DNA of 21,334 nt, from positions 1 to 21,334 of the forward strand of contig JAKAXN010000033.1 of the NCBI GenBank assembly GCA_021816565.1, read 5' to 3'. Each line of letters begins with the position of its first letter. The stretch's first letter is position 1. The translations under genes and the position numbers were made by a program. This stretch comes from Actinomycetes bacterium (GTDB lineage: Bacteria; Actinomycetota; Acidimicrobiia; Acidimicrobiales; Palsa-688). A model generated the notes under the pieces. That model worked only from the letters and a program-made list of their open reading frames with translations. It was not told the DNA's origin and did not search any database. Positions 1 to 18,842 of the stretch are shown piece by piece.

Positions 1-540
1 GCCTACGGATTCGTGGCCGGCATCCTCAAGCACGCCCCGGCCCTGGCGGCGATCTGCAATCCGACGGTCAACTCCTACAAGCGGCTCCAACCCCGGCTCT
101 CCGACGGAACGGTCTCCTGGGCCCCGGTGTGGGCCGCCTACGGGGACAACAACCGGTCCTGCATGCTGCGCCTGCCCCGCAACCGGCCCTGCGTGGAGAA
201 CCGGGCCGTCGACTCGGCGGCCAACCCGTACCTGGCTGCGGCGTTCCTCCTGGCCGCCGGCCTGGACGGGGTGGCCGGCCAGCTCGACCCGGGAGACCCG
301 GTCGACGACGTCACCTACGACTGGGCCGGCAGCGGTCCCAGCTCGGGGGACCTCCAGGCCACCCGCCTACCCCGCAACCTGCTCGAGGCCATCGAGGCGT
401 TCGACGCCGACCCGCTGACCCGCCAGGTGTTCCCGGCCGAGTTCGTGACCGCCTACATCGACATGAAGCTCGACGAGTGGAACACCTACCACGGGCAGGT
501 CAGCGAGTGGGAACGGTCGACCTACCTGACGATGTTCTGA
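1..540 (+). CDS. Glutamine-synthetase-like ligase, C-terminal part (5' truncated by window edge)
   Basis: The open frame runs in from base 1 and ends at TGA 538-540, giving 179 residues of a protein whose N-terminal part lies outside the window. NPTVNSYKRL, the NNRS arginine segment and ENRAVDSAANPYLAA followed by LLAAGLDGV match the C-terminal half of the glutamine synthetase catalytic domain. These enzymes ligate an amine (ammonia in true GlnA) to the gamma-carboxyl of glutamate using ATP. The loop that carries the adenylylated tyrosine (NLYxLPxE) in housekeeping GlnA is absent. The C-terminal EWxxYHxxVSxWE ending is typical of GlnA-like gamma-glutamyl amine or polyamine ligases rather than primary nitrogen-assimilation GlnA. 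The PuuD-like hydrolase two genes downstream supports a gamma-glutamylation role. The amine substrate is unknown. Its stop overlaps the next start as ATGA-type coupling. Confidence 0.9.
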   Translation, partial: AYGFVAGILKHAPALAAICNPTVNSYKRLQPRLSDGTVSWAPVWAAYGDNNRSCMLRLPRNRPCVENRAVDSAANPYLAAAFLLAAGLDGVAGQLDPGDPVDDVTYDWAGSGPSSGDLQATRLPRNLLEAIEAFDADPLTRQVFPAEFVTAYIDMKLDEWNTYHGQVSEWERSTYLTMF

Positions 541-1379
541 TGCCAGGAGCCGTCACCCCATCCCCGACGCCCGGCGCGCTCCGCTGGAGCGACATGGCCT
601 GGCCGGAGCTCGGGACCACCTTCGACGCCAACCCCACCGACGTGGGCCTGCTCCCCGTCGGCGCAACGGAGCAGCACGGCCCCCACCTGCCGACCGGGAC
701 CGACACCATCCTGGCCACCGCTATCTGTGAGGCCGTGTCGGCCCGCACCGGTGCCGTGGTCCTGCCAGCGGTGGCCGTCGGCTGCAGTTACGGTCACGGC
801 CTCGAGCTGCCCGGAACGTTCTCCCTCAGCCCCGAGGCGCTGGCCTCCCAGGTCCGGGAGATGGTCGAGTGGGCGGCCCTGTCCGGGCTGCGACGGATCC
901 TCATGGTCAACGCCCACTTCGGCAACCACGCCTCGTTGATGGTGGCGAGCGACCACATCCGGCTGAAGCGGCCGGATCTCAGGTGCGGCGTGGTCGCCTG
1001 GTGGTCCGCTGATCCGGAGGTGGCGGCGGAGACCGTCGCCGACGGCGAGGACATCCACGCCAACCGCAGCGAGACGGCGCTCATGCTGGCCGTCGCCCCG
1101 GATCTGGTGCACCTCGACCGGCTCCTCCACGCCGACGACCCGGATCGCACCGGGGATCTGGTGTTCCGCTACACCGCCCCGGCGCTGTCCACCAACGGGG
1201 TAACCGGTCGGCCCTCAGAGGCGTCGGCCGAACTGGGCCGGCACCTGCTGGAGCGCACGGTGCGAGCCATCGCCGCCCGGGTCGAGAGGGGCCGGGTGGA
1301 GGAGCCCCCGCTGGCCGATCACAGCCAGGGATCACCGAAGCGGGCCGAGCCCGTCCCGGAGCCGGAGGCCGTGGCGTGA
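540..1379 (+). CDS. Creatininase-family amidohydrolase
   Basis: A 279-residue protein of the creatininase family, metal-dependent amidohydrolases that open cyclic or linear amides (creatininase, some formamide hydrolases, MftE-type peptidases). Glu44-x-His46 in the ATEQHGPHLPTGTD motif, Asp55 and His126 in NAHFGNH fit the expected metal ligands. The family motif NGHGGN is altered to NAHFGN, and the usual HAGExET is altered to HANRSET around residues 173-179, so the active site is atypical. The last ~25 residues are a charged, proline-rich tail of no recognisable function. ATG 540 overlaps the preceding TGA. The gene ends in a GTGA overlap with the next gene, so the three are almost surely co-translated. 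It could hydrolyse an amide intermediate of the operon's pathway; that is inference. Confidence 0.86.
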   Translation: MPGAVTPSPTPGALRWSDMAWPELGTTFDANPTDVGLLPVGATEQHGPHLPTGTDTILATAICEAVSARTGAVVLPAVAVGCSYGHGLELPGTFSLSPEALASQVREMVEWAALSGLRRILMVNAHFGNHASLMVASDHIRLKRPDLRCGVVAWWSADPEVAAETVADGEDIHANRSETALMLAVAPDLVHLDRLLHADDPDRTGDLVFRYTAPALSTNGVTGRPSEASAELGRHLLERTVRAIAARVERGRVEEPPLADHSQGSPKRAEPVPEPEAVA

Positions 1380-2056
1380 CCCCGCAGGTCGCGGTCCTGA
1401 TCGGCCGAAGCCCGGAGCGGCGCTATTCGCTGCACCGGGGTTACGTCGACGCGGTCCACGCCGTCGGGGGGATGCCCCTGCTGCTGGCCGCCGGCCCCGG
1501 GGCCGACCCCGGGCCCGTCCTCGACGCGATCCGGGGTTGCTCGGGCCTGATCGTGACGGGAGGCAACGACGTCGACCCGCAGGTGTACGGCCTCGAAAGG
1601 GGGCGCGGTGAGAAGGACCTGGACCCCGACCGCGACGCCGTCGAGGTGGCCGCGGTCCGCGTCGCCATGGCCGCAGGCCGGCGGGTGCTCGGCATATGCC
1701 GCGGGATCCAGCTGCTGGCCGCCGCCCTGGGGGGAACCCTGGTCGGCGACCTCCCGGCCGCCGGTCACATCGGCCACGAGGACGAGGAGCGGGAGGGGAC
1801 GCCGGTGCACGGCATCACCGCCGAGGGCGCATCCCTGGCATCGCGGGCGCTGGCCGGGGCGGTGGCCGTCAACTCCATCCACCACCAGGCGGTGGCCACC
1901 ACCGGTCCGGTTCTGGCGGCCACGGCCTGGAGCCCCGACGGGGTGATCGAGGCGGTGGAAGGACCGGGTGTGCTCGGCGTCCAGTGGCACCCCGAGCGCA
2001 TGATCGGCACCGATCCCCGTCACCTGGCCTGCTTCCGGTGGGTCGCGGGGACATGA
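1376..2056 (+). CDS. PuuD-like class I glutamine amidotransferase / gamma-glutamyl hydrolase
   Basis: A 226-residue single-domain class I glutamine amidotransferase of the peptidase C26 group. This group contains gamma-glutamyl-GABA hydrolase PuuD and folate gamma-glutamyl hydrolases. The nucleophile elbow GICRG carries Cys108. The catalytic His205 and Glu207 sit in GVQWHPE, and the TGGNDVDP segment near residues 61-68 is typical of the PuuD group. No synthetase partner domain is fused, so hydrolysis of a gamma-glutamyl amide is more likely than ammonia channelling. With the glutamine-synthetase-like ligase upstream it makes a PuuA/PuuD-like pair: glutamate is added to an amine, then removed after oxidation. 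The GTG start at 1376 overlaps the upstream TGA, and its own stop overlaps the ATG of the dehydrogenase. Confidence 0.88.
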   Translation: MTPQVAVLIGRSPERRYSLHRGYVDAVHAVGGMPLLLAAGPGADPGPVLDAIRGCSGLIVTGGNDVDPQVYGLERGRGEKDLDPDRDAVEVAAVRVAMAAGRRVLGICRGIQLLAAALGGTLVGDLPAAGHIGHEDEEREGTPVHGITAEGASLASRALAGAVAVNSIHHQAVATTGPVLAATAWSPDGVIEAVEGPGVLGVQWHPERMIGTDPRHLACFRWVAGT

Positions 2057-2823
2057 CCGTCGCGGTCGTAACGGGGGCTGGGCGGGGCCTGGGCCGGGGG
2101 ATAGCCACCGCCCTGGCCGCCGCCGGCCACGACCTGGTGCTCGGCTGGAACCGGGACCGGTCCGCCCTGCTCGAGACCATGTCGGAGGTCACCGACCTTG
2201 GTGTCCGTGCCGTCGCCGTGCAGGGCGACGTCTCCGCCCCGGACACCTCAGCCCGTCTGGCGGCAGCCGCCACCGGCGATCTCGGCGGTCTCGACGTCTG
2301 GGTGAACAACGCCGGGGTCTCGGTCCTGGCCCCACTGACCGAGACCACCACGACCGACCTCGAGCGCATGGTGGCGGTCAATTTCTACGGGGTCTTCCAC
2401 GGGCTGCAGGCGGCGGCTGCGGCCATGGGAGCTACCGGCCGGGGCGGCCGGATCATCAACGTCGCATCCGACCTGGGCCTCGAGGCCGCCCCCCTCCTGG
2501 CCGGCTACAGCGCCACCAAGTTCGCCGTGGTCGGCCTCACCCAGGCCGCAGCGGTGGAGCTCGGCCCGCTCGGCATCTCGGTCAACTCCGTCTGTCCGGG
2601 CACCGTCGAGACCGACATGGTCGCCACGGAGGAGGAGGCCGAAGCCCGCCTGACCGGGCGACCGGTCGACGACGTGCGGGCCCGCCTCGTGGCCGCGGTG
2701 CCGGCCGGGCGGCTCTGCACGGTCGAGGACGTGGCCGCTCTCGTGGTCTTCCTCGCCGGGCCCGCCGCCGGGTTCGTCACCGGCCAGGCCATCTGCACCA
2801 ACGGCGGATCGATCCGGCATTGA
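2053..2823 (+). CDS. Short-chain dehydrogenase/reductase (classical SDR)
   Basis: A 256-residue classical SDR, an NAD(P)-dependent oxidoreductase of alcohols and ketones. All landmarks are present: the cofactor motif TGAGRGLG at residues 7-14, NNAG at 85-88, structural Asn110, and the catalytic Ser139, Tyr152 and Lys156 (YSATK). The C-terminal TGQAICTNGG segment is the usual end of FabG-type SDRs. The residue after the second strand is not a clear acidic NAD selector (GWNRD), so NADPH use is possible. ATG 2053 overlaps the previous TGA in an ATGA junction. In this operon it would oxidise or reduce a pathway intermediate; the substrate is unknown. Confidence 0.92.
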   Translation: MTVAVVTGAGRGLGRGIATALAAAGHDLVLGWNRDRSALLETMSEVTDLGVRAVAVQGDVSAPDTSARLAAAATGDLGGLDVWVNNAGVSVLAPLTETTTTDLERMVAVNFYGVFHGLQAAAAAMGATGRGGRIINVASDLGLEAAPLLAGYSATKFAVVGLTQAAAVELGPLGISVNSVCPGTVETDMVATEEEAEARLTGRPVDDVRARLVAAVPAGRLCTVEDVAALVVFLAGPAAGFVTGQAICTNGGSIRH

Positions 2824-2838
2824 CACCGATTTCCCGAC

Positions 2839-2844
2839 AAGGAG
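2839..2844 (+). promoter_or_regulatory. Ribosome binding site of the solute-binding protein gene
   Basis: AAGGAG lies 11 bases before ATG 2856. It is one of the few clear Shine-Dalgarno sequences in the operon, where most genes rely on start/stop overlap. It supports the ATG at 2856 over the in-frame TTG at 2820. An independent site here would allow the binding protein to be made in excess over the membrane components. Confidence 0.6.
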
Positions 2845-2855
2845 ACACAAACGAC

Positions 2856-4502
2856 ATGTTCCACTCCCCCCTCCCGAACCGCCGCCGGGCACTGCTCGCC
2901 GGAGTCATGGCCACCGCAGCCCTGGGTGCGACCGCCTGCGGCGGCGGCACCTCGACCAGCTCTGCGGCCTCGCCGGCTGCGCTCAACGTGTCGGCTTCGC
3001 ACACCCTCAACCTGGCCTTCGGGGCCGACATGCAGGTCCCCGACCCCGACGTCTTCTACGAGATCGAGGGCAACGCCGTGGTCACCTCGCTGTACGAGGG
3101 CCTGGTCAGATACGCCAACGGGTCCACCCGGATCGTCCCGGCTCTGGCCCAGAGCTGGACCGTGTCCCCCGACGGGACGACCTACACGTTCCACCTGCGC
3201 CCCGGGGTGACGTTCCACGACGGCACACCGGTCGACTCGCAGGCCGCGGCCTTCAGCTTCGCCCGCCGGACCGGGGTCAACTCGGCCCCCGCCTACATGC
3301 TCGCCGACGTCGTCTCCACCCAGACCCCCGATCCACTCACCTTCGTCGTCCACCTCGACCACCCGGTCTCCGCGTTCATGGACTACCTGGCCTCGCCCTA
3401 TGGGCCGAAGATGGTGAGCCCCACCACGGTCAAGGCCCACGAGGTCGGCGTCACCGCCGCCAGCCCCAACGGCGACTGGGCCCAGCAGTACCTCAAGACC
3501 CACGACGCCGGCACCGGTCCGTACCGGATAACCCAGTTCGTCCCTGGCAGCCACTACGTCCTGTCCGCCTACAGCGGCTACTGGGGGATCAAGCCCTACT
3601 ACACGACGGTCAACATCAGCATCGTCCCCGACATCAGCGTCCAGCAGGCCGAGCTGCAGAGCGGCCAGCTGTCGATGATCCTGCACGGCCTGCCCGTCAA
3701 CGCGGTCCAGAGCTTCCAGGCGAACAAGAACTTCGAGGTGCAGGCGTTCCCGGCCCAGCTGAAAGCCATGCTGGCCGTCAACCCCCACCTCGGGATCTTC
3801 CAGAGCCCGGCCGTACGGTCGGCGCTCAGGCAGGCCATCAACAAAGCCGCCATAGTCGCCGCCGTCTACGGAAACACGCTCGCCACCGTGTCCACCCAGG
3901 CGTACCCGGTGCAGGAGTTCCCCGCCGGCATGGCCGCTGACAACCCGACCTACGACCCGGCGGCGCTCAAGAAGGCCCTGGCGGCCACTCCCGGATCGAG
4001 GAACATCAGCCTGGCCTACTCCACTGACGATCCGACCAACCAGCGGCTGGCCGAGTTCGTCCAGAGCGAGCTCGACGCCGAGGGCCTCAACGTCCAGGTG
4101 CACGGGGTGCCGCTCGGGCAGGTGTTCGACTTCGCCAGCACCCCGGCGGCGCAGCTGCCGAACCTGCTCGTCTGGACGGTCAACCCCGACGACTCCGCCC
4201 CCGACAGCTGGATCCGTATCTTCTCGAACACCAACGGGTCGCTCAACGAGATGCACGGCTCGGTGCCCCAGGCCGACGCGCTGATGGACGCCGGGTTGCA
4301 CTCCACCGACCCGGCCACCATCCAGAAGGACTACGCCGAGGCCGGGACGCTGGTGGCCGACTCCGGGGAGTGGATCAGCATCGCCGACGTGAAGGACGTG
4401 GTGGTCTCCCATGCCGGGGTTGCCGGCTGGTACTTCCAGTTGCCGACCGCCGACACGGTCGTGCTGGGCGACCTCACCTACAAGGCGCCGGGCAAGGCAT
4501 GA
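2856..4502 (+). CDS. ABC transporter substrate-binding lipoprotein, family 5 (peptide/opine/nickel type)
   Basis: A 548-residue periplasmic-type binding protein of the SBP_bac_5 family. The N-terminus has an Arg-rich stretch (NRRRALLAG), a hydrophobic core and a lipobox-like LGATAC with Cys28, followed by a Gly/Ser/Thr-rich linker. This is an exported lipoprotein, possibly using the Tat route because of the consecutive arginines. The mature part shows family hallmarks: YEGLVRY, the LAQSWTVSPDGTTYTFHLRPGVTFHDGTP block and a later HLGIFQSPAVRSALRQAINK. It captures the substrate and hands it to the two permeases encoded downstream. The family takes peptides, opines, sugars, nickel and other solutes, so specificity cannot be assigned. 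A 32-base gap separates it from the SDR gene, and its stop overlaps the ATPase start (ATGA). Confidence 0.93.
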   Translation: MFHSPLPNRRRALLAGVMATAALGATACGGGTSTSSAASPAALNVSASHTLNLAFGADMQVPDPDVFYEIEGNAVVTSLYEGLVRYANGSTRIVPALAQSWTVSPDGTTYTFHLRPGVTFHDGTPVDSQAAAFSFARRTGVNSAPAYMLADVVSTQTPDPLTFVVHLDHPVSAFMDYLASPYGPKMVSPTTVKAHEVGVTAASPNGDWAQQYLKTHDAGTGPYRITQFVPGSHYVLSAYSGYWGIKPYYTTVNISIVPDISVQQAELQSGQLSMILHGLPVNAVQSFQANKNFEVQAFPAQLKAMLAVNPHLGIFQSPAVRSALRQAINKAAIVAAVYGNTLATVSTQAYPVQEFPAGMAADNPTYDPAALKKALAATPGSRNISLAYSTDDPTNQRLAEFVQSELDAEGLNVQVHGVPLGQVFDFASTPAAQLPNLLVWTVNPDDSAPDSWIRIFSNTNGSLNEMHGSVPQADALMDAGLHSTDPATIQKDYAEAGTLVADSGEWISIADVKDVVVSHAGVAGWYFQLPTADTVVLGDLTYKAPGKA

Positions 4503-6589
4503 CGGCCGTCACCTCCGTCCTGCGCCGGGTCCGGCCCCACGCAAACACCACCGGGGAGGACGGCACCCCGCCCTCCGATTCCGGTCACCTGGCCCGCGTC
4601 GACGACCTGCACGTGTCGTTCAAGCGGGGGGACCGCATGGTGAGGGCCGTCCGCGGTGTGACGCTCGACATCGGCCCCGGCGAGGTGCTCGGCTTGGTCG
4701 GCGAGTCGGGGTCGGGAAAGAGCGTGCTCGGGCTGTCGCTGCTCGGGCTCCTGCCGACCAGCCCGGCGCCGATCATCTCCGGGCGGGCCGTCGTGTCGGG
4801 CACCGACATGGTGAGCGCCGCCCCGGAGGAGTGCCGGCTCATCCGGCGCCGTCACATGGGAGCGGTGTTCCAGGACCCGATGACCTCGCTCAACCCCACC
4901 ATGCGGATCGGTCGGCAGGTGGCCGAGGCGGCCGGCGGGGACGAGCCGGTGCTCGAGCTCCTCGACTCGGTGGGCATCCCCGACCCCCGGAGGCGGATGG
5001 AGGCCTACCCCCACGAGCTGTCCGGTGGCCTGCGCCAGCGGGTGATGATCGCCATGGCCATTGCCGGATCGCCGTCACTGGTGATCGCCGACGAGCCGAC
5101 CACCGCCTTGGACGTGACGGTGCAGGCCCAGATCCTCGAGCTGATCCGCCAGCTATGCGACAGCAGGGGTATGAGCTTCATCCTGGTGACCCACGACCTG
5201 GGCGTGGCGGCCCAGATCAGCGACCGGATAGCCGTCCTCTACGGCGGACGCCTGGCCGAGGTGGGCCCGTCCGGGACCATCTTCGACCACAGCCGGCACC
5301 CCTACACCCGGGGCCTGCTTCGGTCCCGGCTGGTCCTCGGTTCGGACCGGGCCCGACCGGTGACCACGCTGCCGGGGGAGCCCCCCGACCCCCGGGCCCA
5401 CCCACCGGGCTGCCCCTTCTCCCCCCGGTGCACCTACCGGAGCGGTGACTGCGACAACGCGCTCCCGGACCTGGTGGCGGTGACGGGGCCGCCCTCGGCC
5501 AGCGCGGTGGCCTGCTTCCACCCGGTCGACCCTGACGCCCCGGCCCGCTCCGAGGAGGCGGCACCACCGTGGCCACCTCCGGCGCCGCGCCCCGGAGGCC
5601 GGGATCCGGCGGTCCTGGTCCACGACGTACACAAGGCCTTCACCCTCGGGTCCGGCTGGAGGAAGGCCCGGCTCCACGCCCTGCGCGGGGTGTCGCTAGA
5701 GGTCGACCGGGGCGAGGCCGTGGCACTCGTCGGGGAGAGCGGATGCGGCAAGTCCACCCTGCTGCGGACCGTGGCCGGGCTGTACCAACCCGACGGGGGC
5801 AGCGTCGAGTTTTCCCGTGACGCGGCCGCCCAGATGGTCTTCCAGGATGCCGGCGCCTCACTGACCCCCTGGTTGTCCATCGGTGAGCTCATAGGTGAGC
5901 GCCTCAGACACCAGGGGCTGAGCCGGGCCCAGCAGGCGGAGAGGGTCCGCCAGGCTCTGTCCCTCGTCGGTCTCCCGGCCGAGGTGGCGGCGGCCAAGCC
6001 GGGACAGCTGTCGGGGGGGCAGCGCCAGAGGGCCGCTCTGGCCCGGGCGACGGTGGTCCCGCCGGCCATCCTCCTCTGCGACGAGCCGACGAGCGCCCTC
6101 GACGTCTCGCTGGCTGCCACGGTGCTCAACCTCATCGGCCGGCTGAGGCGGGAGCTGGACATGGCGGTGCTGTTCGTGACCCACGACCTGGCCGCGGCCC
6201 GGATGGTCGCCGACCGCATCGCGGTCATGTACCTGGGCCAGATCGTGGAGTCCGGCCCCGCGGAGGCCGTGTGCGCTCTCCCGTCCCACCCCTACACGCG
6301 GGCCCTCCTGGCCGCCGTGCCCGATATCGGCCTGTCGAGGGTCCGCATATCCGGCGAGCCGGCCAACCCCCTCGACCCCCCGGCCGGATGCGGATTCCAC
6401 ACCCGCTGCCCCGACCGCATCGACGGGTGCGCCACCCGGTCCCAGACCCTCGTGTCTCTGGGCGGTCCGCCCCGGTCGCGGTCCGCTGATCGGTATCCGG
6501 ACCCGGACCGGCGGATGGTGGCGTGCGCAGTGGTCGCGCCCGCCCCGGACTCCCGAGCGAACTCCAGCCTGCCTGGAAAGGAGCAATGA
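4499..6589 (+). CDS. Fused double ATPase of peptide-type ABC importer (DppD-DppF-like)
   Basis: A 696-residue protein with two complete ABC ATPase domains in tandem; many peptide importers encode these as two genes. Domain 1 has Walker A GESGSGKS (68-75), Q-loop Gln125, signature LSGG (174-177), Walker B ending DEP (198-200) and switch His232. Domain 2 has GESGCGKST (412-420), Gln449, LSGG (504-507), DEP (528-530) and His562. Each is followed by the Cys-rich oligopeptide-transporter C-terminal motif: Cys305, 311, 318 and 339, then Cys631, 637, 644 and 676. In Dpp/Opp ATPases such cysteines can bind an Fe-S cluster. The domains are joined by a Pro/Ala-rich linker around 345-368. It powers import through the two following permeases. 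The ATG at 4499 overlaps the upstream stop. Confidence 0.95.
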
Positions 6590-7467
6590 TGGCTGTAGCC
6601 GAACCGTTCATCTCGGCGTCACCCCTCCGGAGGTCAGGACCGGTCCGGGCCCTGCGCTCCTTCACCGGCCGGGTGGCGGCCCTCGACCTGGCGGCCATCG
6701 CCGCCCTGCTGCTGCTGGTGATCGCCGCGTTGGCGGCTCCGCTCCTGGCCACCCACAACCCGGTGCAGCCGGCCGGGACGTCGTTCGTGCCCCCGGGCCA
6801 CGGAGGGTTCCTCTTCGGGACCGATGAGGTGGGCCAGGACATCTTCAGCCGGGTGCTGTTCGGCCTGCGCTCCAGCCTGGAGGCGGCCGGTGCGGTGATC
6901 GCGTCCGGTGTGGTGATCGGGGGAGCCATCGGGCTGGCCGCCGGGGCGGCCGGCGGGTGGGTCGACGACCTGCTCATGCGCTTCACCGACGTGTTCCTGG
7001 CCCTGCCCGGGCCGGTGCTGGCCATCGCCGTGGTGGCCGCCCTCGGCCCGAGCTTCACCCACACCCTCATCGGGGTGGGGATCGTGTGGTGGCCGTTCTA
7101 CGCCCGCATCGTCCGGGCCGAGGTCAAGGCGCTGGCCGCCCGGCCCCACATCGAGGCGGCGAAGATGGCGGGGGTCGGGGCGTCACGGAGGGCGTGGCGC
7201 CACCTGCTCCCCGGGGGGGTGCCGGCGGTGCTGGTGACGGCCAGCCTGGATGTGGGAAACCTGATCGTCACCCTGGCGTCGCTGTCGTTCCTGGGCCTCG
7301 GTGCACCGGCCCCCGCCCCGGAGCTGGGCTCCATGGCCGCCCGGGGTCTGCAGTACCTGCTGCAGGAGTGGTGGGTGCCGGTCATGCCGGCCCTGGCCGT
7401 GTTCATCGTGGCTCTGGTCGCCAACCTGGCCGGCGACGGGCTCAGGGACCTGCTGGGGGACCGATGA
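6589..7467 (+). CDS. ABC transporter permease, DppC-like
   Basis: A 292-residue inner-membrane permease of the binding-protein-dependent transport family. It has an N-terminal cytoplasmic segment, a first membrane span near 33-55 and then the FGTDEVGQDIFSRVL motif (76-90), characteristic of DppC/OppC. The EAA loop that docks on the ATPase is at 189-208 (EAAKMAGVGAS to HLLP). Further spans lie near 98-122, 136-178, 213-238 and 264-283. AAAGGAG at 6577-6583 sits five bases before ATG 6589, which gives better spacing than the adjacent in-frame ATG 6586, so 6589 was chosen. The DppC-like gene precedes the DppB-like gene, the reverse of the usual dpp order. It overlaps the preceding stop and the following start. 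Confidence 0.93.
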   Translation: MAVAEPFISASPLRRSGPVRALRSFTGRVAALDLAAIAALLLLVIAALAAPLLATHNPVQPAGTSFVPPGHGGFLFGTDEVGQDIFSRVLFGLRSSLEAAGAVIASGVVIGGAIGLAAGAAGGWVDDLLMRFTDVFLALPGPVLAIAVVAALGPSFTHTLIGVGIVWWPFYARIVRAEVKALAARPHIEAAKMAGVGASRRAWRHLLPGGVPAVLVTASLDVGNLIVTLASLSFLGLGAPAPAPELGSMAARGLQYLLQEWWVPVMPALAVFIVALVANLAGDGLRDLLGDR

Positions 7468-8462
7468 TCAGGGTCATAGGCAAGCGGCTCCTGGCCATGG
7501 TGGCCATACTCCTGGTGCTGTCGGCGTCGGTGTTCATCTTGCAGAAAATGAGCCGCACCGATCCGGTGCACGCCTACCTGGGCGCCAACGCGTCGAAGCA
7601 GGCGATCGCCCGGGAGAGCCACATCCTCGGCTACGACCGGCCCCTCATCGACCAGTACCTCCACTATGTGAAAGGTCTGCTGACCGGGGACCTGGGCCAG
7701 TCGCTGCGCACCCGCCGGCCCGTCGCCACCGACCTCGGGGCGTACCTGCCGGCCACCGTCGAGCTGACGCTGTTCGGCCTGCTTCTCGCTTCGGTGCTGG
7801 GAGTCCTTCTCGGCGTCGCCTCGGCGGGCCGCTGGCGGGGCTCGGGGGTCCTGCGGTTCGTCCTGGTCTCAGGGGCGTCCGCCCCGTCGTTCCTGCTGGC
7901 TCTGCTCGGGATCCTGCTGTTCTTCAACAAGCTGCACTGGCTGCCGGCCACGGGCGACACCAGCTATTCGAACGCCCCGACGGGGCCGACGGGGATGGTC
8001 GTGATCGACACGCTCGTACACGGGCAGATGGCCATGTTCGTCGACGCCGTACGCCACCTCGTCCTGCCCGGCCTGTGCATCGCCCTGGGGCCCGCCGTCT
8101 CGATCGGCCGGGTGCTGCGCACCAGCCTGGTGACCAGCCTCCGGTCCGACTTCGTGCGTACCGCCCGGGCCAAGGGGCTGAGCGAGCGGGCCGTCCTCAT
8201 CCGCCACGCCCTGCGCAACTCGCTCAACGCCGGGCTCAGCATGACCGGTCTCCAGGCCGGCCTCATGTTCGCCGGTGTGGTGGTGATCGAGACGGTGTTC
8301 GCCTGGCCCGGTATCGGGCTCTACACCGCCCAGAGCATCCCGGCCGCCGACTTCCCGGCCATCGGAGGGGTCACCCTGGTGCTCGGTGTGGGTTACGTCC
8401 TGATCAACACGACCGTCGACATACTCCAGGCGGTCGCCGACCCGAGGGTTTCATTCGCATGA
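7464..8462 (+). CDS. ABC transporter permease, DppB-like
   Basis: A 332-residue permease of the DppB/OppB type, the partner of the DppC-like subunit. An N-terminal signal-anchor span (about 8-27) is followed by a long external segment that includes the family pattern LGYDRPLIDQYLHYVKGLL and GDLGQSLRTRRPV. Spans lie near 100-120, 132-154, 198-215, 265-285 and 300-322. The EAA-like ATPase-docking loop is DFVRTARAKGLS (229-240). The conserved VVIETVFAWPGIG block is at 273-285. The ATG at 7464 overlaps the upstream TGA by four bases. Its own stop overlaps the Rieske oxygenase start, which ties the importer directly to the catabolic enzyme in translation. Confidence 0.93.
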   Translation: MIRVIGKRLLAMVAILLVLSASVFILQKMSRTDPVHAYLGANASKQAIARESHILGYDRPLIDQYLHYVKGLLTGDLGQSLRTRRPVATDLGAYLPATVELTLFGLLLASVLGVLLGVASAGRWRGSGVLRFVLVSGASAPSFLLALLGILLFFNKLHWLPATGDTSYSNAPTGPTGMVVIDTLVHGQMAMFVDAVRHLVLPGLCIALGPAVSIGRVLRTSLVTSLRSDFVRTARAKGLSERAVLIRHALRNSLNAGLSMTGLQAGLMFAGVVVIETVFAWPGIGLYTAQSIPAADFPAIGGVTLVLGVGYVLINTTVDILQAVADPRVSFA

Positions 8463-9568
8463 CAGCGCAGACGAACCTGGAGCACCCGCCGTCGGGACCG
8501 CTCCCCGAGCCCTTCACCGGCGGACCGCACCCCGGCTGGGCGCCCCACGAGTGGTACACGTCCGAGGCCCTCCTCGACATCGAGCGGCGCCGCCTGTTCG
8601 ACCGGTCGTGGGCCCTGGTCGGCACGGCCGACGACCTGCCGGAGCCGGGCACCTACCTGACCGCCACGGTGGGGTCGAGCCTCCTGGTGATCCTGCGTGA
8701 CGAGGCCGGCGGAGTGCGGGCCTTCCACAACCTCTGCCGTCACCGCGGTCTTCCGATGGTCGAAGGGCAGGGCCGGTGCGGCCGGTTCATGACCTGCCCG
8801 TACCACCAGTGGTCCTACGATCTCGGCGGCGCCCTGCGGAAGGTGCCCCAGGCCGGGGAGCAGTTCCCCGGCATCGACCCCCTACGGTGGGGGCTCGAAC
8901 CGGCGGCGGCCGCCGAGTGGCACGGGATGGTATTCGCCAACCCCGACCCCCAGGCATCGCCTCTCCCGGCGGCACTGGGCATCCTCGATCGTCGGCTGGA
9001 GGCGTTCCTGTCGGGGCCGCTGGTCGAAGTGGCCAAGGTGGAGTACACGGCCCGCTGCAACTGGAAGCTGCTGGTCGAGAACCACGTGGACGTCTACCAC
9101 CTGTGGTACGTGCACAGCCGGTCGCTGTCGATGTACGAGCACCGCAGCTTCGAGTGGGAACTGGAGTCGGACAACTGGTGGAGCATCGAGCCACTGAAGG
9201 ACCGGTCGGCCGCCCCCGATCCCGGACTCGAGTGGATCACCGTCGACGAGCGGGAGGGGATCGGAGCCCACCTCCTGTTCCCCAACCTGATGCTGGTCAC
9301 CACCGGCTCGTACTTCGGGACCTACGACGCCGTCCCACTGACCCCCGACACGACCCGGCTGACCCTCAGGATCAGATCGGTGGCCGGCGCCGACGGATCG
9401 GCTCTGGTGGATTCCGTGCGGTCGTTCCTCGCCGAGGACGTGGCGGTCTGCGAGCGGCTCCAGACCGCCGCCGGGTCCTCGGCCTTCGGGTACGGGCCGC
9501 TGGCCGCGACCCACGAGGAGCCGGTACGGGCCTTCCACCGGGCGGTGGCGGGGCGCTGCCATGGCTGA
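8459..9568 (+). CDS. Rieske non-heme iron oxygenase, alpha subunit
   Basis: A 369-residue oxygenase alpha subunit. The Rieske [2Fe-2S] site is complete: Cys93-x-His95 and Cys113-x2-His116, separated by 17 residues. The mononuclear iron site is marked by NWKLLVENHVDVYHLWYVH, with Asp211, His214 and His219. A C-terminal FLAEDVAVCERLQ supplies the likely third ligand, Asp327. Such enzymes hydroxylate arenes or oxidatively demethylate and cleave quaternary amines (choline, betaine and carnitine oxygenases). The single-component alpha architecture and importer context slightly favour the quaternary-amine group; this is inference. No reductase or ferredoxin gene is present in the window, so electron donors must come from elsewhere. 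ATGA overlap upstream and an eight-base overlap downstream place it firmly in the operon. Confidence 0.94.
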   Translation: MTAQTNLEHPPSGPLPEPFTGGPHPGWAPHEWYTSEALLDIERRRLFDRSWALVGTADDLPEPGTYLTATVGSSLLVILRDEAGGVRAFHNLCRHRGLPMVEGQGRCGRFMTCPYHQWSYDLGGALRKVPQAGEQFPGIDPLRWGLEPAAAAEWHGMVFANPDPQASPLPAALGILDRRLEAFLSGPLVEVAKVEYTARCNWKLLVENHVDVYHLWYVHSRSLSMYEHRSFEWELESDNWWSIEPLKDRSAAPDPGLEWITVDEREGIGAHLLFPNLMLVTTGSYFGTYDAVPLTPDTTRLTLRIRSVAGADGSALVDSVRSFLAEDVAVCERLQTAAGSSAFGYGPLAATHEEPVRAFHRAVAGRCHG

Positions 9569-10199
9569 CGCCGCCATCGACGGCGCCCCCGCCTCACCCG
9601 GGTGCCTGCAGGGAGTGTGGCGACGGGAGGGTCGATCGCTGGCCGGGCGGCCCATGGCGGAGGTGAGCCAGGTGGTGTGGGCCCAGGCCGGGGACTGGTT
9701 CGTGGACGTGCGCCAACCCCGGGGCGACGGCGGCCCGCTGTCCCATCTCGACGAGGCCCAGGCCTTCGGCGGGGTCGCCCGCTGGCGGGACGGCACCGTC
9801 ACCTGGAACCACGACCTCGACACCATGGCGCGTCCCTCCGGCCACGGAGACCGGGCCGAGGTGGAGCTCGACGGGGCCGTCCTCATCGAACGGGGGCCCG
9901 GCTACGAGGAGCGGTGGCGGCTGGACGGCCCGCCCGGCCAGGTCTCGGTGCTGGAGCGGCGCGACCCGGCCGGGGTGCTCACCGCCCGCCTCGTGAGTGT
10001 GGACGACGTGTACGCCCTCGTCTGGGCCGGCCGCCGGCCGGGCGGGGCGGCCCTCCGCTTCGCCGAGGAGGGCTGGGAGGTGGAGGCCTGCGTGGGCCGC
10101 GGGGCCATCCCCTGGCCGGCGGTGCTCGCCGCCCGGGCCGGTCAGGTCCCGGCCGGCTGGTGGAGGGTTCCCACGTCCGGCGACCGGGCGGGGGGTTGA
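9561..10199 (+). CDS. Unrecognised conserved-looking protein, predicted beta-rich
   Basis: A 212-residue protein with no family I can name with confidence. It is rich in tryptophan and alternates short hydrophobic strands with turns: LQGVWRREG near 16-24, VVWAQAGDWFVDVRQ near 38-52, GGVARWRDGTVTWNHDLD near 70-87, then YEERWRLDG. This pattern resembles a lipocalin-like or HRI1-like beta-barrel and suggests small-ligand binding; it is a pattern impression only. There is no signal peptide, membrane span or obvious catalytic motif. The ATG at 9561 lies inside the end of the Rieske gene (eight-base overlap), and the lactonase-like gene follows within a few bases. It is therefore co-expressed with the oxygenase and could act on or bind its product. 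Confidence 0.75.
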   Translation: MADAAIDGAPASPGCLQGVWRREGRSLAGRPMAEVSQVVWAQAGDWFVDVRQPRGDGGPLSHLDEAQAFGGVARWRDGTVTWNHDLDTMARPSGHGDRAEVELDGAVLIERGPGYEERWRLDGPPGQVSVLERRDPAGVLTARLVSVDDVYALVWAGRRPGGAALRFAEEGWEVEACVGRGAIPWPAVLAARAGQVPAGWWRVPTSGDRAGG

Positions 10200-10204
10200 C
10201 CGCG

Positions 10205-11014
10205 GTGGCGTCGGCCGGGGCTCGCCGCGTCGTGCTGCTCACCCTCGGGTGGTGCGACCTGCCGAGGAGCTGGTCGGTCCACGGCGCCGACCCGGCGGAG
10301 CGCCTGGTCGAGCCCGTCCCGGCCGTGCTGGTGGAGGTGGACGGCGGGTGGATCCTGCTCGACACCGGCTACAACCCGGCGCTGATCAGCGACCCGGCGT
10401 TGCGTCGCCGATACCACAACCGCCTGTCGGGGATGACCCCGATCCTGCCCGCTGGCGGGGATCCGCTCCTCGACGCCCTCGACCGCCACGGCCTGACCGT
10501 CGAGTCGATCGACGCGGTCGCCGTCAGCCACCTGCACAACGACCACGCCGGAGGTATCCGCCACTTCGCCGGTACCACGCCGGTCCACCTCCAGAAGGCC
10601 GAGCTCGATTACGGACTCTCCGACTGGCAGGACGCCGAGCGGCACGGTTTCTGCCGGGTCGACTACGACGACCCGGCCATCGACTGGCGGCTCTCCGCCG
10701 GTGACACCGAGATCGGCCCGGGCGTGTCGACGATCCTCACCCCGGGTCACACGCCGGGCCATCAGAGCTTCGTCGTCCGTCTGGACGAGCGCGTCGGGGG
10801 CGGAGGCTTCATCTTCGCCGCCGACGCCGCGGACCTGACCGAGAACATCGACGGCGAGTTGCCCATCGGCGGTTGCATCGGCTGCGACCCGGTCGACACG
10901 GTCGGGAACATCCGCCGGCTCAAGGAGCTCGCCTCCCGTGAAGGGCTGACACTGGTGCCCGGCCACGACCCGGTCGTATGGCCGGCCCTGGCCGAGTCAC
11001 TGAACCGGCGCTGA
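10205..11014 (+). CDS. Metallo-beta-lactamase-fold hydrolase, N-acyl-homoserine-lactonase-like
   Basis: A 269-residue hydrolase. The HxHxDH motif (His109, His111, Asp113, His114), TPGHTPGH with His186, Asp207 in FAADAAD and His254 in VPGHD give a full two-metal site of the lactonase/glyoxalase type. The arrangement and length resemble AiiA-type lactonases. The position of the AiiA catalytic tyrosine, three residues after the bridging aspartate, appears to be Asp210 here, so true AHL lactonase activity is doubtful. Other options are hydrolysis of another lactone or ester produced in the pathway. The GTG at 10205 is preceded by six Gs at 10190-10195 with nine-base spacing. The alternative TTG 10196, overlapping the upstream stop, would add three residues. 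It is the last gene of the operon. Confidence 0.9.
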   Translation: MASAGARRVVLLTLGWCDLPRSWSVHGADPAERLVEPVPAVLVEVDGGWILLDTGYNPALISDPALRRRYHNRLSGMTPILPAGGDPLLDALDRHGLTVESIDAVAVSHLHNDHAGGIRHFAGTTPVHLQKAELDYGLSDWQDAERHGFCRVDYDDPAIDWRLSAGDTEIGPGVSTILTPGHTPGHQSFVVRLDERVGGGGFIFAADAADLTENIDGELPIGGCIGCDPVDTVGNIRRLKELASREGLTLVPGHDPVVWPALAESLNRR

Positions 11015-11054: not shown

Positions 11055-11080
11055 GCAGGATCGGCGCCTGCCGGATTTTT
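11055..11080 (+). terminator. Candidate Rho-independent terminator after the catabolic operon
   Basis: GCAGG (11055-11059) pairs with CCTGC (11067-11071) around a seven-base loop. Four bases later a run of five Ts occupies 11076-11080. A second hairpin, GACCCC-GGA-GGGGTC at 11030-11044, lies just upstream, directly after the lactonase-like gene. T-runs are rare in this GC-rich sequence, which makes the combination notable. The stem is short, so strength is uncertain. The rest of 11015-11143 shows a small inverted repeat, CGGAC-N5-GTCCG at 11101-11115, but no convincing promoter hexamers. Confidence 0.45.
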
Positions 11081-13387: not shown

Positions 13388-13879
13388 GTGCAGACGGCCC
13401 CCCGAGTAGCGATAGTGATGGGCAGCCAGTCGGACTGGAAGACCATGAAAGCGGCAGCCCAGGTCCTCGACGAGCTGGGCGTGCCCTACGAGAGCCGGAT
13501 CCTCTCCGCCCACCGCACCCCGGACCGGATGCGCAGCTTCGCCACCTCGGCCGCCGAGCGGGGACTGTCCGCCATCATCGCCGGCGCCGGCGGAGCGGCC
13601 CATCTACCCGGGATGCTGTCCGCCTACACCCGGGTGCCGGTGATCGGCGTGCCGGTGGAGAGCTCCATCCTGCACGGGGTGGACAGCCTGTGCTCCATCG
13701 TGCAGATGCCTCGCGGGTTCCCGGTCGCGACCATGGCCATCGGACCGGCCGGCGCATACAACGCGGCGCTGATGGCGACGGCCATCCTGGCTCTCGGCGA
13801 CGGGGAGGTGGCCCGCCGGCTGGAGACGTGGCGGGCCGAGTTGACGGCCTCTGTGGCCGAGGCCCCCGCCGATGAGTAG
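13388..13879 (+). CDS. purE: N5-carboxyaminoimidazole ribonucleotide mutase
   Basis: A 163-residue class I PurE, which converts N5-CAIR to CAIR in de novo purine synthesis. Diagnostic segments are VMGSQSDW (10-17), SAHRTP with catalytic His42 (40-45), [12 protein letters not shown] with His72 (65-76) and the [10 protein letters not shown] region (92-101). Length is normal for the bacterial class I enzyme. The paired purK confirms the two-step N5-CAIR route. The GTG start gives the correct N-terminus directly before the first beta strand. A TAGCTT -10 element just upstream suggests leaderless transcription. The stop overlaps the purK start by eight bases. Confidence 0.97.
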
Positions 13880-14942
13880 CCCCCAGCGGCTGGGGATCCT
13901 CGGAGGCGGGCAGCTGGCCCGCATGCTGTCGGTGGCGGCGTCCCGGCTCGGGATCGAGACCCACGTGTACTCCGACGAACCGCAGGCCCCGGCCCGGGCC
14001 GTGTGCGCCGGATTCACCGCCGCCGGCTACGACGACGGCGACGCCCTGGACCGCTTCGGCCGGTCGGTGGACGTGGTCACCTACGAGTTCGAGAACCTTC
14101 CGGTGGAGGCGGTGCAGCGGCTGCAGCAGCTGTGCCCGGTCCGACCCGGCGACTTCCCTCTCGGGGTGTGCCAGGACCGGATGGCGGAAAAGGACTGGCT
14201 CAACGGGCTGGGCCTCCCCACGGTCCAGTGGGCCCCGGTGTCCAGCGAGGCGGACCTGCAGCGGGGGGTGGAGTCGGTGGGACTGCCGGCGCTGCTCAAG
14301 ACCAGGCGCATGGGCTACGACGGCAAGGGCCAGGTCCTGATCACCGATCGTGACCGGATCGCCGGGGCGTGGGCCTCCCTCCAGGGGCAGGAATCGGTGC
14401 TCGAGCAGTTCGTGGACCTCGACCACGAGATCTCCGTCATCGCTGCCCGGAGCCAGGACGGGGAGGTGGCCTGCTTCGACCCGGGAGCCAACGCCCATTC
14501 CGACGGCATCCTGCGCACCACCCGGGTGCCGTCGGGCACCTCCACCGGGTTGCTCGACGCGGCCCGGGCGGCGGCCGCGACGGTGCTGGATGCATTCGGA
14601 TACGTCGGGGTCATCGGCATCGAGTTCTTCGTCACCGGGTCCGGCCGGCTGCTGGTCAACGAGATGGCCCCCCGGGTCCACAACTCCGGGCACTGGACCC
14701 AGAACGGTTGCGCCGTGGACCAGTTCGAGCAGCACGTCCGGGCGGTCATGGGCCTGCCCCTGGGCAACGGAGAGCGCCACGCCGACGTGGTCATGACCAA
14801 CCTCATCGGCTCGGACATCCTGGAGTTGGACCGGTGGCTGCGCCTGCCCGGCGCGGCCGTGCACGTCTACGGCAAGCACGACGTGCGGGACGGCCGCAAG
14901 ATGGGCCACGTCAACCAGGTGACGACCCGCAGCCAACCCTGA
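13872..14942 (+). CDS. purK: N5-carboxyaminoimidazole ribonucleotide synthase
   Basis: A 356-residue ATP-grasp enzyme that carboxylates AIR to N5-CAIR with ATP and bicarbonate, supplying PurE. It has the N-terminal [13 protein letters not shown] (7-19), the ATP-grasp loop [10 protein letters not shown] (145-154) and the highly conserved [14 protein letters not shown] (263-276). Length matches the family. ATG 13872 lies within the end of purE (ATGAGTAG overlap), so the two subunits of the pathway step are coupled in translation. Ordinary in every respect. Confidence 0.97.
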
Positions 14943-14970
14943 CCGGCTCGCGTACCTGATCGGTCAGCGG

Positions 14971-14976
14971 TACCGT
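14971..14976 (+). promoter_or_regulatory. -10 element of a leaderless promoter for the glutaredoxin/thioredoxin-reductase fusion
   Basis: TACCGT (TAnnnT) ends seven bases before GTG 14984, the same geometry as at purE. No ribosome binding site is visible between purK and the GTG, so a leaderless transcript is likely. No good -35 hexamer is apparent. Confidence 0.45.
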
Positions 14977-14983
14977 CAGGTCC

Positions 14984-16222
14984 GTGAGCCAACCAGCCAT
15001 CACCGTCTACGGAACCCTCTGGTGCTCGGACTGCAAGCGGGCCAAGCAGTTCCTCGGGGACCAGCGGGTCCACTACGAGTTCGTCGATGTCGATGCCGAC
15101 CCGGCGGGTATGGCGGTGGTGGAGGAGGCCAGCGGCGGCCGCCAGATCATCCCGGTGATCCGCTTCGACGACGGCCGTAGCCTGGTGGAGCCGTCGAACG
15201 CCGAGCTGGCCGCGGCCCTGGGCCTGCAGACGGTGGCGGCGCGCAGCTACTACGACCTGATCGTGGTGGGCTCCGGGCCGGCCGGGCTGACCGCCGCCCT
15301 GTACGCGGCGCGGGAGGGGATCGACACGCTGGTGATCGAGAGATCCGGGGTGGGTGGTCAGGCCGGGGTCACCGAGCGTCTGGACAACTTCCCGGGGTTC
15401 CCCGAGGGGGTCACCGGTTCGGAGTTCGCGTCCCGGTTGCGGGCCCAGGCGGAGCGGTTCGGGGTGGAGGTCCTCTCGGCCCAGGAGGTGACCGGCCTGC
15501 AGGCTGACGGCCGCTATCACTGCGTCACCACCGCTGACGGCCGGGTGTACCGGGCCGGGGCGGTGCTGCTGGCCCTCGGGTCCACCTACCGGAGGCTCGG
15601 CATCCCCGGTGAGGAGGACTTCATCGGGGCCGGGGTCCACTTCTGCGCCACCTGTGACGGGGCGTTCTACCGCGACCGGGAGGTGCTGGTGGTCGGCGGC
15701 GGCAACAGCGCCGGGGAGGAGAGCATCTTCCTGACCCGCTTCGCCCGCAGGGTGACCATCGTGACGCGCGACGGCCAGCTGTCGGCCAGCCGGGTGGTGG
15801 CGGAGAAGGTCGCCGAGAACCCGGCCATCGAGGTGCTGGCCTCCACCATCCCGGTCGAGTTCCGGGGCGACACGAGGCTGCGGTCCGTGGTGGTGGCCGA
15901 CGGGGCCGGTGACCGGCGCGAGCTGACCCCCGACGGGGTGTTCGTGTTCATCGGCCTGAGCCCCAACAGCGAGCTGGTCCGGGATCTGGTGGACGTCGAC
16001 GCCCTCGGCTTCGTCCAGACCGACATGGGGCTGCAGACCTCGATGTCGGGGGTGTTCGCAGCCGGTGACATCCGGGCCGGCTCGACCAAGCAGGCGGCAT
16101 CGGCGGCCGGTGAGGGGGCGGCCGCGGCCCTGGCCATCCGCCGCTACCTGGAGACCGCCGGCCTGCACGAGCAACCCGGGCGGCCGCAGGTCCTGGCCGA
16201 GACCGACCGGGCCGCCGGGTAG
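14984..16222 (+). CDS. Glutaredoxin (mycoredoxin-like) domain fused to thioredoxin-reductase-like flavoprotein
   Basis: A 412-residue two-domain protein. Residues 5-80 form a glutaredoxin-like domain with WCSDC (Cys14, Cys17), cis-proline segment IIPVIRF and the DGRSLVEPS ending seen in mycoredoxins. Residues 90-390 are a thioredoxin-reductase-like FAD enzyme: GSGPAG (96-101), redox pair CATC (Cys221, Cys224), second nucleotide motif GGGNSA (238-243) and FAAGDI (358-363). The HRRxxxR motif that binds the NADPH 2'-phosphate in classical thioredoxin reductase is replaced by VTRDGQLSAS (260-269), so NADH or another donor is possible. The fusion suggests electron transfer from flavin to the attached glutaredoxin. 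GTG 14984 is supported by a -10 element at leaderless spacing. Confidence 0.93.
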   Translation: MSQPAITVYGTLWCSDCKRAKQFLGDQRVHYEFVDVDADPAGMAVVEEASGGRQIIPVIRFDDGRSLVEPSNAELAAALGLQTVAARSYYDLIVVGSGPAGLTAALYAAREGIDTLVIERSGVGGQAGVTERLDNFPGFPEGVTGSEFASRLRAQAERFGVEVLSAQEVTGLQADGRYHCVTTADGRVYRAGAVLLALGSTYRRLGIPGEEDFIGAGVHFCATCDGAFYRDREVLVVGGGNSAGEESIFLTRFARRVTIVTRDGQLSASRVVAEKVAENPAIEVLASTIPVEFRGDTRLRSVVVADGAGDRRELTPDGVFVFIGLSPNSELVRDLVDVDALGFVQTDMGLQTSMSGVFAAGDIRAGSTKQAASAAGEGAAAALAIRRYLETAGLHEQPGRPQVLAETDRAAG

Positions 16223-17863: not shown

Positions 17864-17890
17864 CGGAGTCGTCCCCTCCCTCATGGGCCC

Positions 17891-17896
17891 ATCCTA
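17891..17896 (-). promoter_or_regulatory. -10 element for the acyl-CoA ligase
   Basis: On the minus strand TAGGAT (17896 to 17891) lies six bases before ATG 17884. Transcription from it would start near 17884 and give either a leaderless message or a roughly 21-base leader carrying GGGAGGGG ahead of ATG 17863. It suggests the ligase can be transcribed separately from the regulator gene 65 bases upstream. Confidence 0.4.
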
Positions 17897-17927
17897 AGGG
17901 CGCCCTCCCACACCGACGTGGTAGTGG

Positions 17928-18800: not shown

Positions 18801-18842
18801 GCCGGTCTCCACGACCGGGCAGAGTAGCCGCCCCGAGGCCAG

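Follow-up and report, generated by a model that had tools for sequence, protein, structure and literature searches.

The stretch of DNA analysed here, hereafter the window, comprises 21,334 nucleotides from an Actinomycetes bacterium (assembly GCA_021816565.1, contig JAKAXN010000033.1). Positions 1-11014 hold 11 co-directional genes on the forward strand, whose open reading frames and junctions were taken from the sequence. It is likely that this operon is a system for the uptake and breakdown of a guanidino compound, in which a Rieske non-haem iron oxygenase and a protein resembling the lyase MgdL would set guanidine free. The first-pass annotation of this DNA had described a ten-gene operon whose neighbours overlap by 3-8 bases. 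The operon is real and tightly overlapping, but it counts 11 genes, and the overlaps, found at nine of its ten junctions, measure 1-8 bases.

The first gene encodes a glutamine-synthetase (GS)-like ligase (1..540; PF00120, 2.8e-50), truncated by the left edge of the window to its C-terminal 179 amino acids; TIGR03105 marks the fragment as type III, and the full-length relative from locus L106 has 459 amino acids. It overlaps by 1 base, at 540, a non-canonical creatininase-family amidohydrolase (540..1379; PF02633, 7.6e-66), which is followed, with 4-base overlaps at 1376 and 2053, by a PuuD-like gamma-glutamyl amide hydrolase of the Peptidase C26 family (1376..2056; PF07722, 7.2e-48) and by an SDR oxidoreductase (2053..2823; PF00106, 3.8e-52). 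The sole junction without overlap is the next one, a 32-base gap with AAGGAG upstream of the ATG at 2856, where the genes of an Opp/Nik-type ABC importer begin: a solute-binding lipoprotein of the SBP_bac_5 family (2856..4502; PF00496, 4.7e-67), a fused double ATPase with two ABC_tran and two oligo_HPY stretches (4499..6589), a DppC/Opp2C-type permease (6586..7467, starting at 6586 or 6589; PF00528, 4.3e-26) and a DppB/Opp2B-type permease (7464..8462; PF00528, 3e-30). The lipoprotein and ATPase genes share 4 bases (4499), the ATPase and first permease genes 4 (ATG 6586) or 1 (ATG 6589), and the two permease genes 4 (7464). The second permease gene overlaps by 4 bases (8459) the gene for the Rieske alpha subunit (8459..9568; PF00355/PF00848), a proposed N-alkylguanidine hydroxylase, and this in turn overlaps by 8 bases (9561) the gene for an HRI1-fold beta-barrel protein of 212 amino acids (9561..10199), which is MgdL-like and a proposed hemiaminal (hydroxyalkylguanidine) lyase. 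An MBL-fold lactonase-like hydrolase comes last (10196..11014), with a 4-base overlap provided that TTG 10196, rather than a later codon, is its start. Two overlapping terminator-like hairpins followed by ATTTTT stand on the same strand at 11055..11074, which makes the MBL gene the plausible end of the operon; between 2700 and 11300, on both strands, 4 terminator-like sites were found against a mean of 1.3 in shuffles.

The Rieske oxygenase and the MgdL-like protein

Rieske oxygenases carry a CxH/CxxH cluster and a His-His-Asp iron site with a bridging Asp. Both are complete in the window protein (C93-H95, C113-H116, D211, H214, H219 and D327), which is thus a Rieske alpha subunit, and these residues are invariant in 38 aligned proteins, itself included. 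The 38 proteins were used in one scan of genome contigs that gave 78 loci (L numbers denote loci, G numbers genomes); the loci at 39-55% identity (L001-L013, L035), together with class and order searches, yielded 20 distinct Rieske genomes, all of which were kept, and the fetched regions were compared with the window proteins by tblastn. For the tree, 85 loci were taken and 16 without a match of at least 230 query residues were dropped, L013 and L035 among them. The window falls in a clade of 22 of the 73 rows (support 100/99), made up of itself, the 20 rows that 18 of the 20 genomes contribute (two copies each in G002 and G498) and L148, from a 21st genome of the clade, G928, found later via the orphan protein described below; the exact position of the long branches L148, L012, L075 and L078 is unsure. 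Its nearest partners are G291 (100/94) and then G440 (100/96), which carry a riboswitch-led operon with GdmH and urease on one and on two contigs, respectively. Relatives about 80% identical were found on metagenome contigs, and source records label the Rieske proteins of relatives 'choline monooxygenase' or 'ring-hydroxylating dioxygenase'.

An AF2 model of the window Rieske protein (pLDDT 89.6) brought CntA and the proline-betaine and stachydrine demethylases to the top rows of Foldseek (TMq 0.72-0.76, 22-23% identity). This predicted fold ranking lends weak support to N-dealkylation, since aromatic dioxygenases follow in the same list at similar TM-scores. Breakdown of a quaternary amine, choline or carnitine was rejected as the principal role, as GbcA scores 110 against a cut-off of 670 and guanidine genes accompany the relatives. 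Tandem Rieske genes stand ahead of an HRI1-like gene in L004 (9965-11964) and L105 (10318-12530), and may act sequentially on two groups of one substrate; in L103 a TauD-family dioxygenase gene (7372-8319) lies immediately upstream of a Rieske gene.

The orphan gene at 9561..10199 was absent from the discussion in the first-pass annotation, and it proved decisive. According to excerpts of PMC12508155, MgdL is a lyase specific for N-(hydroxymethyl)guanidine in which D49 and R51 are required. The window orphan carries D49 and R51, and a D-x-R motif is present in 17/17 and 15/15 HRI1-like proteins. Comparison by hhalign with the protein at the mgdL position of L151, a stand-in for the published MgdL, gave a probability of 98.3 and an E-value of 1.7e-14. 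L151 holds an operon of the published type, with riboswitches, CgdAB, carboxylase, 2-oxoglutarate (2-OG) oxygenase, HRI1-like protein, Opp-type importer and allophanate-hydrolase-like protein. The orphan has no Pfam match and does not reach the gathering score of PF16815; among ten homologues two pass this score (L105 with 53.9 and L148 with 46.0, against 27), L005 reaches 20.5 and seven give no match. It has the HRI1 fold, and for its model 3rby was listed by VIA-align, though not in the Foldseek top 50. A protein-database profile search with A3 gave 6 matches, and a plasmid search with the window orphan none. The HRI1 Pfam model found nothing in five proteobacterial genomes, but the controls gave nothing either, so no absence is claimed there.

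An MgdL-like gene is present in 18 of the 20 Rieske genomes. In a second order, where guanidine riboswitches accompany 5 of the 14 HRI1-like loci scanned, 15 such loci were found, and in 11 of them an MgdH-type 2-OG oxygenase gene lies directly upstream. The other four have a Rieske gene of the window's clade (one locus, L148), a desaturase-type gene in the same operon (two) or neither (one). In the window it is the Rieske oxygenase that occupies the place of the MgdH-type oxygenase before the orphan, and a search of 43 loci from the Rieske genomes, some of which overlap, gave no MgdH homologue at E<=1e-8.

Other arrangements of HRI1-like genes were also seen. At L153, L155, L156, L157, L159, L160 and L161 an MgdH-like oxygenase is paired with a longer HRI1-like protein, whose substrate may differ; the flanks of these seven loci gave no guanidine hydrolase or carboxylase match, and the six scanned (all but L161) no guanidine riboswitch. 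In L149 (4370-11959) and L150 (3684-12143) a guanidine-I riboswitch precedes genes for a TauA-like binding protein, a desaturase-type protein, an SDR, an EamA transporter, a creatininase-family protein, a biuret-hydrolase-like protein, an MgdL-like protein and ABC components. These runs could represent a creatinine-to-guanidine route with a third type of oxygenase.

Gene order, guanidine riboswitches and degradative partners

The gene set recurs in relatives. Four genomes share the window's placement of GS ahead of the creatininase-like gene: L115 keeps this order up to the ATPase and, when joined with L101, on past the two permeases to the Rieske gene; L119 keeps it until it is cut off inside the solute-binding protein gene; L120 keeps it through both permeases, followed by an HRI1-like gene; and the contig of L121 stops inside the creatininase-like gene. 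L103, L105, L106 and L111 have the same genes with the creatininase-like gene before GS and a variable permease/ATPase order. Because these genes recur together, the possibility that their neighbourhood is not conserved fails, and the earlier description holds of a single catabolic operon, conserved and made up of an importer, a Rieske oxygenase, a GS-type ligase and a PuuD-type hydrolase. A minimal arrangement is that of L012, from a record of Aciditerrimonas ferrireducens strain MV1 that bears no MAG label, with riboswitch, GdmH, Rieske, HRI1-like and amino-acid-permease-family genes in a row.

A guanidine-I riboswitch above the gathering score precedes GS in all four genomes with the window's GS-first order, leaving 85 (L115), 48 (L119), 62 (L120) and 62 (L121) bases to where the GS match starts. 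Riboswitches also lie upstream of ureohydrolase-Rieske genes in L002, L003 and L012, and upstream of importer or GdmH-MBL genes in L006, L010 and L011. The locus scans found none at L001, L004, L005, L007, L008, L101, L102, L103, L105, L106 and L111; L013, L035, L104 and L161 were left out of these Rfam scans, the first three being covered genome-wide. Genome-wide, 12 of the 20 Rieske genomes have a guanidine riboswitch. RF02514 matches in L101, L102 and L123 overlap urease genes. The window's own leader is not visible because the window begins inside GS; it has the gene order of the four riboswitch-led genomes and groups with two of them in the Rieske tree. In its lineage a guanidine-I riboswitch lying just beyond the window probably turns the operon on in response to guanidine.

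Genes for guanidine degradation accompany the Rieske clade. In L101 and L102 a ureohydrolase gene adjoins the Rieske gene, with urease genes downstream, and the L102 protein scores 657 bits to 9fek and 563 to 7esr/7oi1 ('agmatinase 2' entries), the next match having 178. We take 9fek and 7esr/7oi1 to be the Nitrospira inopinata guanidinase and Sll1077/GdmH. L106 (by family scan) and L007 (by tblastn) have UAAP1/UAAP2-, urea carboxylase- and allophanate hydrolase-type proteins, and in excerpts of PMC12508155 UAAP1/UAAP2 genes with carboxylase and allophanate hydrolase genes are read as the guanidine carboxylase route. Altogether, guanidine genes, urease or a guanidine riboswitch occur in the flanks of 11 of the 20 Rieske loci (L002, L003, L006, L007, L010, L011, L012, L035, L101, L102 and L106, with a riboswitch only in L010 and urease only in L035), and in G137 the carboxylase set lies about 15 kb away on the same contig. 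At genome level, GdmH was found in 13 of the 20 genomes (E<=1e-100). The carboxylase search gave matches under the limit in 15 of the 20; nine of these, covering the biotin-carboxylase part only, were excluded, and matches extending past this part remained in six further genomes (G002, G004, G005, G137, G498 and G639). Thus 19 of the 20 have one guanidine route or the other, and none has both.

This association was also measured in 395 genomes of one class, centred on G001, in which the best five candidates per genome (Rieske, GdmH) or the best two (carboxylase) were scored at limits of E<=1e-70 for Rieske, 1e-100 for GdmH and 1e-140 for carboxylase, the last set after the search of the 20 genomes. 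The sample contained Rieske in 6 genomes, GdmH in 12 and carboxylase in 10. GdmH or carboxylase was present in 6/6 Rieske carriers and in 16/389 others (Fisher p=1.5e-8), in 5/5 carriers when G001 was removed (p=2.6e-7), and GdmH alone in 3/6 against 9/389 (p=4e-4). In a control of 64 more distant Rieske loci, GdmH, urease and carboxylase (>80 bits) were found in none of the available flanks, some on short contigs; a 31% CgdB-like protein and an amidase were seen in L024, and an amidase in L048. On the strength of the distant-loci control and the class-sample association, a simple background gathering of guanidine genes was rejected. A second type of ureohydrolase, which may act on a guanidino acid, lies near the Rieske gene in L102 (4532-5719), L002 (8760-9800) and L003 (1489-2535); that of L102 scores about equally to GdmH (175 bits), guanidinopropionase (163) and guanidinobutyrase (160). 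In L006, L011, L118, L128 and L101 an MBL lactonase-like gene lies immediately 3' of GdmH.

The same data bear on whether the operon degrades an unrelated nitrogen compound, with guanidine genes nearby through the clustering of nitrogen-scavenging functions and the importer bringing nickel for GdmH and urease. Urease is a nickel enzyme, and the fused ATPase exceeds the NikD cut-off (344.7 against 318.7); GdmH, too, is called a nickel enzyme in excerpts of PMC12508155. The remaining importer scores are below their cut-offs, with NikE at 323.6 against 332.55, NikA 142.6 against 393, NikB 199.1 against 447, NikC 218.3 against 358.45, Opp2C 230.9 against 300 and Opp2B 241.8 against 350. The N-terminus of the solute-binding protein is signal-like, with ATAC before GGG, interpreted as a lipobox. 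Genomes of the carboxylase route retain the importer (L106, L103/L117, L111/L122). This, a guanidine riboswitch directly upstream of the operon's first gene in four relatives, the order riboswitch-ureohydrolase-Rieske in L002, L003 and L012, the MgdL-like protein adjoining the Rieske oxygenase and the genome-level p=1.5e-8 make an unrelated compound very improbable.

Proposed release of guanidine and competing explanations

From anatomy, conservation, riboswitches, co-occurrence, homology and fold we infer the following reactions and substrate. The Opp/Nik-type importer would take in a guanidino compound, and the Rieske oxygenase would hydroxylate the carbon beside a guanidine nitrogen. The resulting hemiaminal, N-(hydroxymethyl)guanidine for example, would be split by the HRI1/MgdL-like protein into guanidine and an aldehyde, and guanidine would then be degraded by GdmH and urease, or by carboxylase, CgdAB and allophanate hydrolase, which relatives encode next to the operon or at other sites, and used as a nitrogen source. 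The GS-like, creatininase-like, PuuD-like and SDR proteins would probably prepare or clear a larger relative of the Rieske substrate. Methylguanidine is our tentative choice for the likeliest Rieske substrate: the lyase that has been characterised acts specifically on N-(hydroxymethyl)guanidine, and minimal loci such as L012 lack the GS module in the part that was read. The substrate could also be a larger N-alkylguanidine, either creatine-like or a gamma-glutamylated amine such as agmatine. The first-pass annotation had proposed import and degradation of an unusual amine or amide, noting that Rieske alpha subunits demethylate or cleave quaternary amines. The theme stands, but the riboswitches, the GdmH/urease or carboxylase modules and the MgdL-like protein in relatives point to guanidino-compound chemistry rather than to a generic or quaternary amine.

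The weak point of this model is the GS module. The full-length GS of L106 has as nearest PDB entry 9qur, a glutamate-methylamine ligase (282 bits), while the PuuA model gives 127.5 on the window fragment and 214.8 on the L106 protein against a cut-off of 650; the ligase is nearer to a glutamate-methylamine ligase than to the PuuA type that had been assigned. The PuuD name fares no better, the equivalog scoring 77.9 against 266; the protein has GICRG at residue 106 and HPE at 205. The creatininase-like protein scores 137 bits against 235 with TIGR04448 and 137 against 172 with the MftE model, and has NAHFGN where the creatininase chain 3a6j_A, presumably the E122Q variant of the active-site Glu, has NGHYQN. 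The MBL protein reaches 116.6 against 390 for AttM and 110.8 against 375 for AiiA. Since these equivalog cut-offs were missed, Puu pathway, canonical creatininase and acyl-homoserine lactone (AHL) lactonase were rejected as single-gene names. No creatininase-like hit at E<=1e-40 was found in 7 of the 20 Rieske genomes, and of the loci read in these seven, five have no GS match, one a 24%-identical GS off the cluster and one a short GS remnant. The glutamyl module thus seems dispensable for the Rieske step. The L035 matches to GS and creatininase (6765-7024; 48 and 35 amino acids), beside a TauABC-type importer, are probably decayed remnants.

It had been suggested earlier that glutamate serves as a removable group, a possibility for which the aniline and naphthylamine pathways offer a genuine precedent, though the module seems to be absent in several Rieske genomes. 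In its specific form, GS would add glutamate to a guanidino-amine, the Rieske oxygenase would hydroxylate a product such as gamma-glutamylagmatine beside the guanidine nitrogen and free guanidine from it, in the fashion of aniline dioxygenase, the SDR would convert the gamma-glutamyl aldehyde and the PuuD-like hydrolase would remove glutamate. A ligase, an amidotransferase-like hydrolase and a Rieske oxygenase are indeed the aniline/1-naphthylamine set, whose dioxygenase converts gamma-glutamylanilide, as stated in excerpts of PMC11335346. In L103, L105, L106, L111, L115, L119 and L120, GS and PuuD-like genes are adjacent or separated by the creatininase-like gene, with the SDR gene next. However, the seven genomes without a creatininase-like hit have no GS of this type at their loci apart from the short remnant in L035, both GS and PuuD are missing from the part of L012 that was read, L124 lacks PuuD between GS and SDR, and the nearest solved relative of the ligase acts on methylamine. 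We therefore regard a gamma-glutamylated Rieske substrate as unlikely.

A start from creatinine or creatine is less probable still. In such a route the creatininase-like enzyme would open the cyclic acylguanidine, and one or two Rieske oxygenases would remove carboxymethyl and methyl groups to leave guanidine. The riboswitch-led run of L149 speaks for it, with a creatininase of 372.8 against 235, a biuret-hydrolase-like isochorismatase, an SDR, a desaturase-type protein and an MgdL-like protein, as do the tandem Rieske genes near the creatininase-like gene in L004 and L105; abiotic production from creatinine is also the reported source of methylguanidine in excerpts of PMC12508155. The window enzyme, however, scores under the cut-off for creatininase, with FG in place of the YQ of the creatininase chain, and the scheme offers no place for GS and PuuD. 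Because a creatininase over the cut-off shares the L149 run with an MgdL-like protein, this origin is conceivable, if improbable.

Several observations weigh against guanidine release by the Rieske oxygenase and the MgdL-like lyase. The window itself holds no guanidine-degrading gene and, starting inside GS, no guanidine riboswitch; the family scan of the 11 genes found no reductase or ferredoxin gene in the cluster; and the extra genes suggest a larger substrate than the N-(hydroxymethyl)guanidine of the published lyase. G291 and G440, whose Rieske proteins are nearest the window's in the tree, gave no HRI1-like match, and in G548 one of the two pieces of the HRI1-like gene contains an in-frame stop. 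At L147 an HRI1-like gene with D-x-R (9545-10162) has no oxygenase match nearby, and a plasmid search with the L105 relative gave two weak Streptomyces hits whose listed neighbours include no guanidine gene or oxygenase. Whole-genome searches of G667 found neither GdmH nor the carboxylase route, only a riboswitch; the carboxylases of G002 and G498 may be guanidine or urea carboxylases; and G928 (L148) has no guanidine gene and no guanidine riboswitch in its 20 kb. Genome-wide, no riboswitch was found in G001, G002, G004, G137, G498, G639, G666 and G473. Genomes with the creatininase-like gene ahead of GS gave none upstream of that pair, so no riboswitch heads this form of the cluster, and a TetR gene stands beside the cluster in L005, L105 and L106.

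A broader scheme, which we consider rather doubtful, would have GS tag a guanidino-amine or acylguanidine, the Rieske oxygenase and an HRI1-family lyase split off guanidine, whether the compound is still tagged or already freed, and the creatininase-like and PuuD-like hydrolases release glutamate. HRI1 proteins would then be general hemiaminal lyases that partner at least three unrelated types of oxygenase (2-OG, Rieske and desaturase-like), and eukaryotic HRI1 might be a lyase as well.

The rest of the window holds ordinary genes at 13415-16222 (PurE, PurK and a thioredoxin-reductase-like protein with a glutaredoxin-like-looking N-terminal extension) and, at 16283-21334, the benzoyl-CoA epoxidation genes of a separate aromatic pathway, with BoxC (800 against a cut-off of 712), the start of BoxB, an acyl-CoA ligase and a PaaX-like regulator.

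Comparison with known systems

Guanidine riboswitches are widespread, yet where guanidine comes from in nature is still an open question according to excerpts of PMC12186494. The Rieske clade, accompanied by guanidine-degrading genes in 19 of the 20 genomes searched, may be a new natural source, and the link to MgdL suggests a likely activity for the orphan family. If this is true, Rieske chemistry joins the enzymes known to release guanidine, and the 'choline monooxygenase' and 'ring-hydroxylating dioxygenase' labels of the relatives need correction; minimal loci such as L012 offer test systems. Among the matches listed from open-licence papers there was no report of a guanidine-releasing Rieske oxygenase and, as the first-pass annotation had supposed, no described pathway with this exact gene set; the word Rieske does not occur in the main text of PMC12508155 or PMC12186494. 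An earlier hint comes from a Synechococcus guanidinase cluster, compared by description only, where excerpts of PMC10119275 mention a Rieske Fe-S protein downstream, near both the guanidinase and a ykkC riboswitch; there it was taken to indicate Fe use and was assigned no reaction.

The first fold matches of the window Rieske protein, CntA and the proline-betaine and stachydrine demethylases, differ from it in gene context. The aniline/1-naphthylamine clusters with AtdA and NpaA likewise combine a GS-like ligase, an amidotransferase-like hydrolase and a Rieske oxygenase, according to excerpts of PMC11335346, whereas the 11 genes here include no beta subunit (AtdA4) or reductase (AtdA5), and the relatives add a guanidine riboswitch and guanidine-degrading partners. 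The putrescine Puu pathway shares a GS-type ligase and a Peptidase C26 hydrolase, but neither PuuB nor PuuC is among the 11 genes, which have a Rieske oxygenase and an MgdL-like protein instead. The GdmH and guanidine carboxylase operons with guanidine-I riboswitches have the same RNA regulator and the same degradative modules as the relatives, to which the window operon adds an oxidative front end that would release guanidine. The closest parallel is the methylguanidine demethylase system MgdH/MgdL of Vreelandella boliviensis (PMC12508155), which releases guanidine and formaldehyde from methylguanidine. In it, too, an oxygenase gene is followed by that of a beta-barrel lyase with D49 and R51, and an importer is found; its guanidine riboswitches and linked carboxylase or hydrolase routes have counterparts in relatives of the window. 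Here the oxygenase is of the Rieske and not of the 2-OG/Fe(II) type, the importer is of the Opp/Nik type, and GS, creatininase-like, PuuD-like and SDR genes are added. Most likely, then, the operon represents the known oxygenase-plus-lyase scheme for guanidine release in a Rieske version, with an unexplained glutamyl/amidase module.

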